64,000 bases of DNA, taken from assembly GCF_014805525.1 (NCBI RefSeq), contig NZ_JACFSZ010000001.1, positions 1 to 64,000 of the forward strand, written 5' to 3'. Source of the stretch: Rhabdothermincola sediminis (GTDB lineage: Bacteria; Actinomycetota; Acidimicrobiia; Acidimicrobiales; Acidimicrobilacustridaceae). The translations under genes and the position numbers were made by a program. The notes under the pieces are model-generated. The model did not search any database, was not told the origin of the DNA, and saw only the letters and a list, made by a program, of their open reading frames with translations. Shown in pieces: positions 5,305 to 19,624 of the stretch (within the stretch, counting starts at the first letter, position 1; each line of letters begins with the position of its first letter).

Positions 5305-5721
5305 ATGTTGATGCCGAGGAAGGTCAAGCACCGCAAGCACCAGCGGGGCCGGCTCAAGGGCCAGGCCAAGGGTGGCACCACCATCACCTTCGGCGACTAC
5401 GGCATCCAGGCCCTGGAGCCGGGCTGGATCACCGCTCGCCAGATCGAGGCTGCTCGTATCGCGATGACGCGTCACGTCCGCCGAGGCGGCAAGGTCTGGA
5501 TCAACGTCTTCCCTGACAAGCCCATCACGCAGAAGCCTGCGGAGACCCGTATGGGGTCGGGCAAGGGGAACCCCGAGAAGTGGGTGGCTGTGGTCAAGCC
5601 CGGCCGGGTGCTCTTCGAGCTTTCCTACAGCGATCCGCAGATCGCCCGGGCCGCGATCGAACGGGCGATCCAGAAGCTGCCCATCAAGGCTCGATTCATC
5701 GCACGGGAGGAGGCGCTCTGA
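5305..5721 (+). CDS. rplP: 50S ribosomal protein L16
   Basis: 138 residues. The start is placed at ATG 5305 to give [15 protein letters not shown], the usual L16 N-terminus; an upstream TTG at 5299 would only overlap rpsC further. Conserved [18 protein letters not shown] and [18 protein letters not shown] segments contact 23S rRNA near the A site. The stop overlaps the rpmC ATG. Confidence 0.97.
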
Positions 5722-5957
5722 TGGCCGATGCCCGAGCCACTGCCCTACGGGACCTCAACGACGGCGAGCTGCTCGAACGCCTGGCCGAGACGAAGCAGGA
5801 GCTGTTCAACCTCCGCTTCCAGCACGTCACGGGCCAGCTCGAGAACCACGCCCGCCTGGGACAGGTGAAGAAGGACGTGGCCAGGATCATGACCGAACTG
5901 CGGGCACGGGAGATCGCCGCCGCAGAGGCGCTGGCGCGACACGAGGAGAAGGCCTGA
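5721..5957 (+). CDS. rpmC: 50S ribosomal protein L29
   Basis: 78 residues forming two helices with the family motif [21 protein letters not shown] longer in-frame extension upstream runs through rplP and is ignored. Overlaps both neighbours by one base (TGATG junctions), showing tight translational coupling. Confidence 0.96.
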
Positions 5958-6238
5958 TGGTCGACACCGGGACGCAATCGACGACGCGGCCCAATCCGCG
6001 CAAGGTCCGCGAGGGACTGGTCGTCTCGAACAAGATGGACAAGACGGTGGTCGTCGAGGTCGTCGATCGCAAGCGTCATCCCCGCTATCCCAAGACGGTG
6101 CAACGCACCTCCCGCCTGTACGTCCACGACGAGGCGAACGACCTCAACGTCGGCGACCGGGTCCGGGTGGCGGAGACCCGTCCGCTCTCCAAGCTCAAGC
6201 GCTGGCGCCTGGTCGAGGTACTGGAGCGGGCCCGATGA
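5957..6238 (+). CDS. rpsQ: 30S ribosomal protein S17
   Basis: 93 residues with an OB-fold core: [19 protein letters not shown] and [21 protein letters not shown] short N-terminal extension ([14 protein letters not shown]) precedes the core, as in many actinobacteria. The stop overlaps rplN by ATGA. Confidence 0.97.
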
Positions 6239-6603
6239 TCCAGCAGGAATCCCGACTGCGCGTCGCCGACAACAGCGGGGCCAAGGAAGTGCTCTGCATC
6301 AAGGTGCTCGGCGGCTCCAAGCGCCGCTACGCGTCCATCGGCGACGTCTTCGTGGCCACGGTCAAGGACGCCATCCCCGGCGCGGCGGTGAAGAAGGGCG
6401 ACGTCGTCAAGTGCGTCGTCGTCCGGGTCAAGAAGGAGAAGCGGCGCCCCGACGGCTCGTACATCCGCTTCGACGAGAACGCCGCCGTGCTCATCAACGA
6501 CCAGATGCAGCCTCGGGGCACCCGCATCTTCGGGCCGGTGGGTCGGGAGCTGCGGGACAAGAAGTTCATGCGCATCGTCTCGCTCGCGCCGGAGGTCCTG
6601 TGA
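6235..6603 (+). CDS. rplN: 50S ribosomal protein L14
   Basis: 122 residues, exact family length. [18 protein letters not shown] start and the highly conserved [15 protein letters not shown] and [20 protein letters not shown] segments identify L14, which forms an intersubunit bridge and the RsfS docking site. Confidence 0.98.
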
Positions 6604-15088: not shown

Positions 15089-16027
15089 ATGCTGGTCATG
15101 CAGCGTCCCAAGGTCGAAGCGCTCGGTGAGCCGGAAGGCAACCGTCAGCTCTTCGCCATCGGCCCCCTCGAGCCGGGCTTCGGCCACACCATCGGCAACT
15201 CGCTCCGTCGTACGCTGCTGTCGTCGATCCCCGGCGCGGCGGTGACCCAGGTCCGCTTCGACGACGCGCTCCACGAGTTCGACACCATCAAGGGCGTCAC
15301 GGAAGATGTCACGGACATCATCCTCAACCTGAAGGACCTGGTCCTGCGGGTGTTCTCCGACGAACCGGTCACGCTGCGCCTCGACGTGCGCGGCCCGGCC
15401 GACGTCACCGCCGCGGACATCACGCCGAACGCAGACGTGGAGATCCTCAACCCCGAGCTGCCCATCGCCACGATCAACGAGAACGGGCGGCTGGCCATCG
15501 ACATCACCGTCGAGAAGGGCGTGGGGTACGTGTCGGCCGAGCGGAACAAGACCTCGAACACCATCGGTGTGATCCCGGTCGATTCCATCTTCTCGCCGGT
15601 GCGGCGGGTGACGTTCGCGGTCGAGCCCACCCGGGTGGAGCAATCCACCGAGTACGACCGGCTGGTGCTCGACATCGAGACTGACGGGTCCATCACTCCC
15701 CGCGACGCGCTGGCCTCTGCGGGTGCCACCCTGCAGTCCCTGGTCCAGCTCGTGGCGGAGATGAGCGAGGAGCCCCAAGGTCTCGAGCTCGGTGAGGTCG
15801 GCGTGACCGCCGCCGGTTCGCCCGACCTCGAGCTGCCCATCGAGGACCTCGACCTCTCCGAGCGGCCCCGCAACTGCCTCAAGCGAGCGCAGGTCAACAC
15901 CATCGGCGAGCTGCTGGAGAAGACCGAGGACGACCTGCTCGCCATCACGAACTTCGGCCAGAAGTCGCTCGACGAGGTGATCCAGAAGCTCGACGAGCGG
16001 GGCCTGTCGCTCAAGCACCGGGACTGA
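15089..16027 (+). CDS. rpoA: DNA-directed RNA polymerase subunit alpha
   Basis: 312 residues. The N-terminal dimerisation and assembly domain contains [20 protein letters not shown]; after an acidic linker the C-terminal domain has [18 protein letters not shown] and [14 protein letters not shown], the helices that contact UP elements and activators. Starts 48 nt after rpsD. Confidence 0.98.
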
Positions 16028-16043
16028 CGGGAACGGAACTGCG

Positions 16044-16397
16044 ATGCCAGCCACGCCACGCAAGTCACGCCGCTTCGGCGGTGACGCCGCGCACCAGAAG
16101 GCCATGATGGCCAACCTGGCCGCGTCGCTGTTCGCCGCGGAGGCGATCGTCACCACCGAGGCCAAGGCCAAGGCCCTCCGCCCGATCGCGGAGAAGCTCA
16201 TCACCAAGGCCAAGAAGGGTGGTCTGCACAATCACCGCCAGGTGGTGGCGTTCCTGCGCGACAAGGAGATGGCGTCGAAGCTGTTCGATGACATCGCCCC
16301 GCGCTACACGGAGCGCCCCGGCGGCTACACCCGGATCCTCAAGCTCGGTCCACGCCACGGTGACAACGCGCCGATGGCGCGCATCGAGCTGGTCTGA
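16044..16397 (+). CDS. rplQ: 50S ribosomal protein L17
   Basis: 117 residues, with [20 protein letters not shown] near the start (the common MRHRK form is replaced by [13 protein letters not shown]) and the C-terminal [19 protein letters not shown]. Closes the alpha operon; truA follows after 56 nt. Confidence 0.97.
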
Positions 16398-16453
16398 CGA
16401 CCCGGGGGCCATCCCTGCCTGCCGATCGGTCCTCGGGGCGGGAGCGGCAGGAC

Positions 16454-17293
16454 ATGACCCTCTTCGACGACGACCTCGGCACGGGGGTCGAGCACCAACC
16501 TGGCGATGACGACCCGGATCTGGTGCGCGTGCGGCTCGTCGTGGCCTACGACGGGTCGCCCTACCACGGGTTCGCCGCCAATCCCGGCGTAGCAACCGTG
16601 GCGGGCACCCTGCAACGCACCATCGAGCGGGTCCTGCGGCATCCGGTCGAACTGACGGGCGCGGGTCGCACGGATCGGGGCGTGCACGCCTGGGGGCAGG
16701 TCGTCTCCTTCGACGCTCCGGCCGCGGGTCTCGACCTGGGGGCCCTGCAACGGTCGATCAACAAGCTCTGCGGTGGCACCATCGTGGTTCGGGAGGCCGC
16801 GGTGGCGCCGCCCGACTTCGACGCCCGGTTCTCGGCTCGCTCGCGCACGTACCGCTACACGATCGTGAACCGTCCGGTGCCCGATCCCTTCCTCGCCGCC
16901 ACCTCCTGGTGGGTCGATCAGCCCCTCGATGTCGCCGCGATGCGGCTCGGTTGCGACCCGCTGATCGGCGAGCACGACTTCAGCTCGTTCTGCCGGCGGC
17001 CGAAGGACCGGATGATCGGCACCGAGGACGACGGCGATCCTGGCCCGTCGCTCGTCCGCCGGGTCATCGACGCGCGCTGGGACGACGAGGGCGACGGCGT
17101 CCTGCGGTTCACCATCGAGGCCACCGCGTTCTGTCACCAGATGGTGCGCAGCATCGTCGGCACCCTCGTCGACGTGGGGTTGGGTCGGAAGCGTGCCGGG
17201 GAGGTCGCAGGCATCCTCAGGGGGCGCGACCGTTCGCTCGCCGGCCCGGTCGCGCCGCCGCAGGGCCTGTGTCTCTGGAGGGTCACGTACTGA
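16454..17293 (+). CDS. truA: tRNA pseudouridine(38-40) synthase TruA
   Basis: 279 residues; isomerises uridines 38-40 of the tRNA anticodon arm. The catalytic aspartate is D74 in GAGRTDRGVHAWGQVV; the later RYTIVNRP and EATAFCHQMVRSIVGTLV segments match the family. A short acidic N-terminal extension (about 24 residues) precedes the fold. rplQ-truA linkage is typical for Gram-positives, where rplM usually follows; here two encapsulin genes intervene. Confidence 0.97.
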   Translation: MTLFDDDLGTGVEHQPGDDDPDLVRVRLVVAYDGSPYHGFAANPGVATVAGTLQRTIERVLRHPVELTGAGRTDRGVHAWGQVVSFDAPAAGLDLGALQRSINKLCGGTIVVREAAVAPPDFDARFSARSRTYRYTIVNRPVPDPFLAATSWWVDQPLDVAAMRLGCDPLIGEHDFSSFCRRPKDRMIGTEDDGDPGPSLVRRVIDARWDDEGDGVLRFTIEATAFCHQMVRSIVGTLVDVGLGRKRAGEVAGILRGRDRSLAGPVAPPQGLCLWRVTY

Positions 17294-17304
17294 CTCATCC
17301 TGGG

Positions 17305-17310
17305 TAGGCT
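17305..17310 (+). promoter_or_regulatory. -10 box for the encapsulin operon
   Basis: TAGGCT, 74 nt before the cargo ATG and just after the truA stop. No convincing -35 box is visible. Fits the TANNNT pattern seen throughout the window, so the operon may be transcribed independently of truA. Confidence 0.4.
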
Positions 17311-17384
17311 CGAGCGAGGTTGCTCGCTGGTCATCCCGGCCGAGCACCGTCCGTGCGATGGCGAGAGAGAGGCGAGCGAGCCAC

Positions 17385-17798
17385 ATGTCGAGCGAGGGAT
17401 ATCACGAGCCCGTCGAGCTGCTCGACGAGGACGTGCGCGATCGTCACCGGGCGATCGTGTCGATCATGGAGGAGCTCGAGGCGGTCGACTGGTACGACCA
17501 GCGGGTGCGGGCCACGAGCGACGAGTCGCTGGCGGCAGTGCTCGGGCACAACCGGGACGAGGAGAAGGAGCACGCGGCGATGACCCTCGAGTGGCTGCGC
17601 CGTCACGACCCGGTCCTCGACCGTCATCTCCGCACCTACCTGTTCACCGAAGGATCGATCACCGAGCGCGAGCAGCAGGCCGAGCACGGCCAGAGCGGCG
17701 AGCACGGCGAGAGCGGTGGGCAGGCCGCGAGCCCTGGGCCTGGCGGAGGACCGCCTCCTGACGGCAGCCTCGGCATCGGAAGCCTGAAAGGGGAGTGA
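17385..17798 (+). CDS. encapsulated ferritin-like protein (EncFtn cargo)
   Basis: 137 residues. Two helices with HRAIVSIMEELEAVDWYDQR (21-40) and NRDEEKEHAAMTLEWLRR (56-73), the encapsulated-ferritin signature. E30, E60 and H63, with W36, line up with the ferroxidase residues of the Rhodospirillum rubrum protein (E32, E62, H65, W38; recalled). The family oxidises Fe(II) as a ring of half-ferritin dimers and relies on an encapsulin shell for storage. A Gly/Pro/Glu-rich flexible linker (96-126) leads to DGSLGIGSLKGE at the C-terminus, a textbook encapsulin loading peptide. ATG 17385 is preferred; ATG 17358 would add MARERRASH. The shell gene follows by 7 nt. Confidence 0.95.
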   Translation: MSSEGYHEPVELLDEDVRDRHRAIVSIMEELEAVDWYDQRVRATSDESLAAVLGHNRDEEKEHAAMTLEWLRRHDPVLDRHLRTYLFTEGSITEREQQAEHGQSGEHGESGGQAASPGPGGGPPPDGSLGIGSLKGE

Positions 17799-17805
17799 GC
17801 GTTCG

Positions 17806-18615
17806 ATGAACCACCTGTTGCGTGAGGTCGCGCCGATCTCCGAGCGGGCGTGGGAGGAGATCGACCGGGAGGCGGCGACCACCCTCAAGCACTTCCTCGC
17901 CGGTCGACGGCTGCTCGATTTCGAGGGACCGAAGGGCTGGGACCACATAGGGGAACCGACCGGGCGGGTCGATGCCCTCGGCAGCCTCCAAGGCGGTGCG
18001 GTCAGCGCGGGCGCCCGGCGATCCCAGCCGATGCTGGAGCTGCGCACGACCTTCGAGGTTTCGCGTCGCGAGCTCGAAGCGATCGATCGGGGCTCGTGCG
18101 ACGCGGACCTCGATAGCGTGCGCGAGGCCGCGAAACGGGCCGCGCTCGCCGAGGACGAGCTGGTCTTCCACGGCTTCCCGGCAGGAGGTGTCCAGGGCCT
18201 GGTGGGGGCCACACCGCTGGAGCCGGTGCCGATCACCACCGATTACGAGCGGTATCCGCGCTACGTCGCCCAGGCCATGGCCCGACTGCAGGACGTGGGC
18301 GTCGATGGGCCGTTCGCCATTGCGCTTGGCCCCCGCTGCTACACGGGGGTCATCGAGGAGTCGGAGATGGGGGGCTACCCCGTCCTCGAGCACCTGCGCC
18401 TGATCCTGGGTGGGCCCGTGGTGCGTGCCCAGGCGGTCGACGGTGCTGTCGTGATGAGCATCCGCGGTGGGGACTTCAAGATCGTCACCGGTCAGGACTT
18501 CTCGATCGGCTACCTGTCCCACGACCGGGACACGGTGTCGCTCTACCTGGAGGAGACGATCACGGTGCAGATCTGTCTACCCGAGGCGGCGGTGCACCTC
18601 CGCTACCCGGACTGA
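17806..18615 (+). CDS. encapsulin nanocompartment shell protein
   Basis: 269 residues of the linocin-M18/encapsulin family (HK97-like fold). Recognised by MNHLLREVAPISERAWEEID (1-20), LAGRRLLDFEGPKGW, AAKRAALAEDELVFHG and the C-terminal part with GYLSHDRDTVSLYLEETITV. Proteins of this length generally form 60-subunit T=1 shells that enclose cargo carrying the GSL-type peptide. Immediately downstream of its EncFtn cargo; together they form an iron-sequestering compartment. GGGGAG overlapping the cargo stop is the Shine-Dalgarno. Confidence 0.96.
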   Translation: MNHLLREVAPISERAWEEIDREAATTLKHFLAGRRLLDFEGPKGWDHIGEPTGRVDALGSLQGGAVSAGARRSQPMLELRTTFEVSRRELEAIDRGSCDADLDSVREAAKRAALAEDELVFHGFPAGGVQGLVGATPLEPVPITTDYERYPRYVAQAMARLQDVGVDGPFAIALGPRCYTGVIEESEMGGYPVLEHLRLILGGPVVRAQAVDGAVVMSIRGGDFKIVTGQDFSIGYLSHDRDTVSLYLEETITVQICLPEAAVHLRYPD

Positions 18616-18640
18616 GGTCGCCGGGCCTCCGGCACCCGAG

Positions 18641-18669
18641 TTGCTCGGCGTCGGCCGCCCTCCTATCGT
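18641..18669 (+). promoter_or_regulatory. promoter of rplM-rpsI
   Basis: TTGCTC (18641-18646), a 17-nt spacer and TATCGT (18664-18669), just after the encapsulin stop. It gives a leader of roughly 83 nt before rplM, so ribosomal expression does not depend on read-through of the encapsulin genes. Confidence 0.5.
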
Positions 18670-18677
18670 TGTAGGTC

Positions 18678-18706
18678 GCCTCGGGAGCACCTGCGGTGCG
18701 CGAGGC
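18678..18706 (+). other. rplM leader hairpin
   Basis: GCCTCG (18678-18683) pairs with CGAGGC (18701-18706), enclosing GCACC (18687-18691) and GGTGC (18695-18699) around a TGC loop: 11 bp in two blocks. It lies at the start of the predicted rplM leader and could be an autoregulatory or attenuation element. Confidence 0.5.
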
Positions 18707-18758
18707 AGACGAGTCCGTCCCGACGATCCTGTCGTTCCAGACCAGAAGGTGCCGGCGC

Positions 18759-19205
18759 GTGCGCACGTACTCCCCGAAAGCCAGCGAGATCGAGCGGTCT
18801 TGGCACGTCATCGACGCGGAGGGCCTGGTCCTCGGACGGGTCGCCAGCGAGGTGGCACGGATCCTCCGGGGCAAGCACAAGCCCACCTTCGCCCCGCACC
18901 TCGACACCGGTGATCACGTAATCGTCGTGAACGCGGACAAGGTCGTGCTGACCTCCAACAAGGCCGACAAGGTGCTCGTCCACCGGCACTCGGGCTACCC
19001 GGGTGGGCTGCGGTCGCAGAGCTACGGCGAGCTGCTCGCCAAGCGCCCGGAGGAAGCGGTACGACGAGCGGTGCGCGGCATGCTCCCGAAGACTCGCCTC
19101 GGCCGCCAGATGCTTCGCAAGCTCAAGGTCTATGCCGGCCCCACCCATCCGCACGCCGCGCAGCAGCCCCGGCCTCTCGCTCTCGAGCACGCACGGGCTC
19201 GCTGA
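18759..19205 (+). CDS. rplM: 50S ribosomal protein L13
   Basis: 148 residues from GTG 18759 ([20 protein letters not shown]), the actinobacterial L13 start. [19 protein letters not shown] and the [20 protein letters not shown] segment are conserved. The open frame upstream to 18696 crosses the leader hairpin region and lacks similarity. Paired with rpsI 26 nt downstream. Confidence 0.97.
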
Positions 19206-19231
19206 ACCAGTTAGCAACGGAGTCGACGAGC

Positions 19232-19624
19232 ATGCCCAAACCACTCATCCAGTCGACCGGCCGGCGCAAGCGAGCGGTTGCCCGCGTGCGGGTGCGTACG
19301 GGGTCGGGGCAGATCACGGTCAACGACCGGCCGGTCACCGAGTTCTTCCCCTCGGAGACCCACCGGATGATCCTGTCCGAGCCGCTCCGGCTGACCAACA
19401 CCGCCGAGGTCTACGACGTCGACGCGACCATCACCGGCGGAGGAGTGTCGGGGCAGGCGGGCGCGCTGCGTCTCGGCATCGCTCGGGCGCTCGCCGGGCT
19501 CGATCCTGATCTGCGCACCGAGCTGAAGCGTGCCGGCTTCCTCACTCGCGATGCCCGCGAGAAGGAGAGCAAGAAGTACGGCCTCAAGAAGGCTCGCAAG
19601 GCACCGCAGTACTCCAAGCGCTGA
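19232..19624 (+). CDS. rpsI: 30S ribosomal protein S9
   Basis: 130 residues with [38 protein letters not shown] and the C-terminal [12 protein letters not shown] that touches the P-site tRNA. Follows rplM as usual and precedes glmM by 9 nt. Confidence 0.98.

Follow-up and report, generated by a model that had tools for sequence, protein, structure and literature searches.

We analysed the first 64,000 nucleotides (nt) of contig NZ_JACFSZ010000001.1 of Rhabdothermincola sediminis (hereafter, the window), in which a gene for an encapsulated ferritin (EncFtn) is followed by a gene for an encapsulin shell. The genome assembly comprises 3.29 Mb in 49 contigs, with a completeness of 100% and a contamination of 0.43%, and the window is the beginning of its contig 1. 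We consider, with a probability of about 95%, that the pair encodes an encapsulin iron store that assembles by itself. The pair is an ordinary member of the well-known encapsulin iron stores, the best-characterised type; the points of interest are its unusual location amid ribosome genes and the tests across the order, rather than the two genes as such. The pair consists of the following features:

17385-17798, + strand: EncFtn cargo gene, 137 amino acids (PF22277, TIGR04535, PDB relatives, metal residues)
17766-17789, + strand: loading peptide SLGIGSLK at the cargo C-terminus (translation; sole genome match of the DNA pattern)
17806-18615, + strand: family 1 encapsulin shell gene, 269 amino acids (PF04454, NF041155, PDB relatives, predicted fold)

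Both reading frames are intact, and the TGA stop codon of the cargo gene is followed by 7 nt before the shell gene. Thus, the 269-residue shell gene lies 7 nt past the cargo, as the initial annotation of this DNA had claimed. The start that it gave, 17305, is 80 nt too early: this DNA is non-coding and lies after the stop codon (17291-17293) of the upstream gene, and the cargo coding sequence begins at 17385. There is a second in-frame ATG at 17358. The codon aligned with 17385 is ATG, GTG or TTG in nine of ten relatives from the same order, which supports the start at 17385.

The EncFtn cargo

Residues 6-89 of the cargo match PF22277, the two-helix EncFtn domain (6.2e-40). The cargo also matches TIGR04535 (5e-44), and the shell matches the encapsulin equivalog NF041155 (3.2e-85). 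The scores of 148.9 bits against a cut-off of 125 and 285.6 bits against a cut-off of 100, respectively, exclude chance for both genes. The cargo score against the EncB family model NF058679 was 85.3, below the cut-off of 90, and there was no match to PF00210 (ferritin, bacterioferritin, Dps) in the cargo at E up to 1.

The closest known system is the EncFtn/encapsulin pair of Rhodospirillum rubrum (Rru_A0973; PDB 5da5, 9ry4, 33bf, 9rzu, 9s05, 9sqr). The alignment of the cargo with 33bf_A (1.8e-45) is full-length and takes in the SLGIGSLKGE tail; the cargo also matches 5da5_A (6e-39). The best PDB sequence relative of the shell is 9ry4 (2.6e-73), and 9rzu, 9s05 and 9sqr are listed as relatives of both proteins. 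Sequence identity in the aligned part indicates that 33bf and 9ry4 probably come from R. rubrum. The two systems differ in the host, an alphaproteobacterium versus an actinobacterial relative of Acidimicrobiia, and in the linker before the peptide.

Residues 2-96 of the cargo align without gaps with R. rubrum EncFtn, at an offset of 2. According to the available text of PMC5012862, the di-iron ferroxidase ligands of R. rubrum EncFtn are Glu32, Glu62, His65 and Tyr39, and the entry site is formed by Glu31/Glu34. Because the alignment is gapless, E30, E60, H63 and Y37 of the cargo correspond to these ligands. E29/E32 align with the entry-site pair; the ferroxidase and entry-site residues are identical in the two proteins. 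H55, E59 and E62 align with the outer iron site, which is described in the same text. The initial annotation had named E30, W36, E60 and H63 as conserved metal residues, and all four occupy the claimed positions in the translated cargo, together with E29, E32, Y37, H55, E59 and E62. W36 aligns with position 38 of the R. rubrum protein; Trp38 does not appear in the available text of PMC5012862, and we claim no role for this residue. With family models above their curated cut-offs and the ferroxidase residues present, the EncFtn signature assigned to this ferritin-like cargo holds. Judging from its sequence, the cargo is an EncFtn-type encapsulated ferritin.

The encapsulin shell

The shell gene is the sole PF04454 match in the genome (1e-80). 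To model the shell, we used AlphaFold2 on 41 aligned shells, and compared the model with solved structures by Foldseek. The mean predicted local distance difference test (pLDDT) score was 93.1 and the predicted template modeling (pTM) score 0.89; the weakest ten-residue block was 181-190 (mean 65). The closest structures were 9e5e_A, with a template modeling (TM) score of 0.95, 7phm_0 (0.94) and 7oe2_A (0.93), all family 1 shells, and the first 27 rows were family 1-type shells with TM of 0.80-0.95. Structure prediction had been proposed as a check of the HK97 fold, and the predicted shell does have the encapsulin (HK97-type) fold. Thus, by model and family matches, the shell is a family 1 encapsulin with an HK97-type fold. 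T=3 and T=4 shells (for example, 7s2t and 6nj8) rank later, with TM of about 0.74-0.81. This favours a T=1 particle of 60 subunits, as would be expected from the closest solved relatives.

We then assessed how the pair is distributed among named genomes. The scan gave 207 relatives confirmed by alignment search, and the figures below refer to the best 80; a single-sequence query of the named genomes gave no confirmed relative. The best 80 span Actinomycetota, Pseudomonadota and Myxococcota, according to the record titles. In 78 of them EncFtn lies beside the shell on the same strand, and 77 of these 78 carry the loading motif; the one without it is a fused gene. These results bear on whether the shell is a remnant of a phage capsid (HK97-type major capsid protein) with a ferritin-like neighbour by coincidence. 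Encapsulins and HK97-type capsids do have common ancestry (PMC8346489, available sections). The best matches of the shell are NF041155 and solved encapsulins, its neighbours are housekeeping genes, and the cargo-shell pairing recurs throughout the relatives. The family and neighbourhood results refute a capsid remnant, whose probability is close to nil.

The loading peptide and its link to the shell

The cargo tail ends DGSLGIGSLKGE. The C-terminal loading peptide named in the initial annotation is thus present by translation as SLGIGSLK, a peptide that the available text of a 2024 review (PMC11202242) lists for R. rubrum and Haliangium ochraceum. A degenerate DNA pattern for GSLGIGSLK has one match in the 3.29-Mb genome, and a reversed control pattern has none. 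This strict pattern matches the present gene only and gave no second cargo in the genome. A looser motif pattern yielded two extra sites, neither at a plausible protein C-terminus, and both were rejected.

Comparing loci across the order puts the loading-peptide rule to a natural test. We took EncFtn loci from the order and from nearby genomes and applied one fixed motif pattern. It turned out that 39 of the 44 EncFtn adjoining a shell match carry the motif (among these, the gene at L036 has a broken frame). A further 18 loci had no adjacent shell; L222 is broken and was dropped, which left 17 intact ones (L023, L027, L032, L034, L035, L215-L221, L223-L227), L032 lying at a contig end. The motif is present in none of these 17, and all stop shortly past the core. 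Thus, the tail goes with the shell, as for a loading signal. For 16 of the 17, the genome gave no shell match, assuming one shared genome draw for the shell and EncFtn scans; L227 is a second copy with a shell elsewhere in its genome. The peptide-less EncFtn are evidence that short FLPs (s-FLPs) can act without a shell. The available text of PMC11202242 leaves open whether short EncFtn-like proteins without the peptide are encapsulated, and the 16 shell-less genomes bear on this question.

Two shells of the order (L116 in G104 and L119 in G377) have just upstream, in the place of EncFtn, a gene that we take to encode a DyP-like peroxidase. These peroxidases end in SLRIGGLKGARS or SLSIGSLKGA, a cargo swap within the order. 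Taken with the 17 shell-less EncFtn, such shells could speak for an EncFtn that forms a free ring outside the shell, like s-FLPs, with the shell holding another cargo. For the window this is very improbable, since the cargo has a loading peptide and is followed after 7 nt by the one shell gene of the genome, and the looser-motif search offered no plausible cargo in its stead.

Several results weigh against an iron store. The family is not universal in the order, with a shell in 47 of 397 genomes and an EncFtn match in 61. The peroxidases at L116 and L119 indicate that iron storage does not follow from the presence of a shell alone. Five of the 44 shell-side cargos miss the motif pattern: L121, L122 and L124 are close variants by eye, L120 is degenerate, and L099 is a cargo-shell fusion. 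In favour of the store, by contrast, are the rates of nonsynonymous and synonymous change (dN/dS, NG86). Relative to two family members they were 0.19/0.56 and 0.25/0.76 for the cargo and 0.33/0.67 and 0.31/0.81 for the shell. The resulting ratios of 0.33-0.49 indicate purifying selection on both genes, to be taken with caution because the pairs are divergent and the method is simple.

Proposed mechanism and comparison with known systems

The genes, their families, the residues, the shell fold and the linkage of peptide and shell across genomes are observed here. For the T number, the decamer, loading, iron oxidation and storage, homologues suggest the following. The 269-residue shell protein would form a closed HK97-type particle, most likely T=1 with 60 subunits and about 24 nm. 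EncFtn chains would pair, with E30, E60, H63 and Y37 of two chains forming a di-iron ferroxidase centre, and five dimers would make a decameric ring. The flexible cargo tail ending SLGIGSLK(GE) may bind the shell on its inner face, drawing the cargo in during assembly. Fe(II) would enter through the shell pores, be oxidised by EncFtn and be deposited as mineral in the lumen. A working iron compartment, as expected in the initial annotation, is what the homologues point to.

The H. ochraceum system (PDB 7oe2, 7oeu, 5n5f) shares the cargo type, SLGIGSLK and the shell fold (TM 0.93, 41% identity to 7oe2_A), but its sequences are more distant than those of the R. rubrum pair (cargo 5.3e-38, shell 1.1e-63). 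The DyP-loaded family 1 encapsulins (Mycobacterium tuberculosis, Escherichia coli; PDB 9bkx, 9e5e) have the same shell fold (TM 0.95) and a peroxidase cargo in contrast to EncFtn. s-FLPs (PDB 3k6c) share the EncFtn core (4.2e-33), but lack the tail, whereas the cargo in the window has a tail and a peptide. Archaeal Flp-fusion encapsulins (Pyrococcus furiosus, PDB 2e0z, 5n5e) have the same type of ferritin-like domain and an HK97-type shell; they differ in that cargo and shell are fused, and in their T=3 particles (PMC8346489, available sections). Here there is no single cargo-shell frame: the genes are separate, with the stop codon and spacer between them, and the cargo carries a loading peptide.

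A fusion was observed elsewhere in the order. The loci L145 and L099 are one stretch (G192, JANXNS010000083.1, an Aquihabitans metagenome-assembled genome), in which the EncFtn core and the shell share a single frame at 1729-2853. The loading peptide is absent, and AGGAG and ATG persist ahead of the shell part. Four of the 12 Aquihabitans genomes match and only G192 is fused; it is a single metagenome-assembled genome, in which an assembly error is possible. Flp fusions are reported in Archaea only, according to the available part of PMC8346489 (section 7). Our literature search found no paper that joins encapsulin with Aquihabitans or with Acidimicrobi. With the locus in the window, a poorly cultured actinobacterial lineage gains a well-supported EncFtn encapsulin.

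Iron setting of the genome

We also assessed which other iron-storing proteins the genome may encode. Within the reach of PF00210, no ferritin, bacterioferritin or Dps was found in the genome; the same search gave matches in 14 of 14 control genomes. The sole genome match (E 9.5e-6) is a rubrerythrin (PF02915 4e-31, PF00210 4.7e-07). Therefore, EncFtn is the only candidate iron-storing protein that these searches found here. The rubrerythrin lies at 1489-2419 of L042 (G000, contig 7) and adjoins a gene that presumably encodes a Fur/PerR-type regulator.

The presence of a rubrerythrin beside such a gene would also suit an EncFtn-loaded compartment that serves mainly for redox purposes or iron detoxification, with no long-term store and only incidental mineral. 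We regard this as rather unlikely: rubrerythrin is all that PF00210 finds, which makes some storage role for the compartment likely, and the ferroxidase and entry-site residues of EncFtn are intact. An iron store that replaces ferritins is not a general rule, since PF00210 matches occur in 27 of the 38 genomes examined, including strong ones (E 1e-33 or better) in G003, G004 and G013, the three family members that share the gene order of the window.

Position between truA and rplM

The pair stands in a run of genes on the + strand: rpoA, rplQ, truA, EncFtn, encapsulin shell, rplM (GTG at 18759), rpsI and glmM. The housekeeping names are presumed from sequence and gene order, and that of truA in particular from gene order and annotation. 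The neighbouring features are as follows:

16454-17293, + strand: truA (presumed tRNA pseudouridine synthase), open reading frame at the end of the rpoA-rplQ-truA run; context, outside the compartment
17294-17384, + strand: 91-nt gap between truA and the cargo gene, with no TTGnnn-N16..19-TAnnnT match
18616-18758, + strand: 143-nt gap before rplM with a promoter-like site TTGCTC-N17-TATCGT, assigned to rplM and not to the encapsulin pair; context

A shell between truA and rplM was found in 4 of 49 shell loci (48 fetched and the window), which is a lower bound because some loci end at contig edges. The four loci (the window, G003, G004 and G013) belong to one family; the named loci L134 and L136, which show the same gene order, coincide with G003 and G004 and are not independent. 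truA orthologues with 60-70% identity were present in 19 of 20 related genomes searched. In genomes without the pair at this place, rplM directly follows truA in 16 of 19 truA loci; thus, the pair looks inserted. The shell tree was built by a quick method from 113 rows, after 12 duplicate named loci and partial matches of fewer than 200 columns were dropped. In this tree the four truA-rplM shells are close together and form no single supported clade (2 changes versus 4.0 in shuffles). A single insertion of the pair for all four loci is neither shown nor excluded.

In all 20 loci, four with the pair and 16 without it, the site TTG-N16..19-TAnnnT precedes rplM; in mononucleotide shuffles it occurs in about 2% per region. 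The pattern was picked after viewing the four loci, so the 16 pair-less loci (16/16) are the fairer test. This indicates that the pair sits ahead of rplM's own promoter. The same pattern was found upstream of EncFtn in none of the four loci. A scan of 16000-19300 for sigma-70-type promoters and terminators gave 0 and 0, and is uninformative at this G+C content. As the gap between truA and EncFtn has no promoter match, the pair may be transcribed by read-through from rpoA-rplQ-truA. Read-through from truA would fit the sequence; a promoter of unrecognised type in the 91-nt gap is also possible.

These results suggest a simple idea, which we put forward tentatively and think improbable as a whole: the compartment of this lineage was inserted in a ribosome/RNA-polymerase run and is read through from rpoA-rplQ-truA, and storage scales with growth, not with iron. 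If so, iron storage would be growth-coupled by gene position, and its capacity would follow ribosome synthesis, in a genome in which no other ferritin-type cage was found. A role as the main, growth-coupled iron store is hypothetical.

Two loci of this family carry broken frames. In L024 (G013) the shell frame (5647-6448) is broken near codon 41-43 and the cargo is intact; the G013 genome is in about 440 contigs, and an assembly error may stand behind the broken frame. In L036 (G012) EncFtn and the shell lie elsewhere in the genome, both frame-broken, and truA-rplM of G012 is without the pair.
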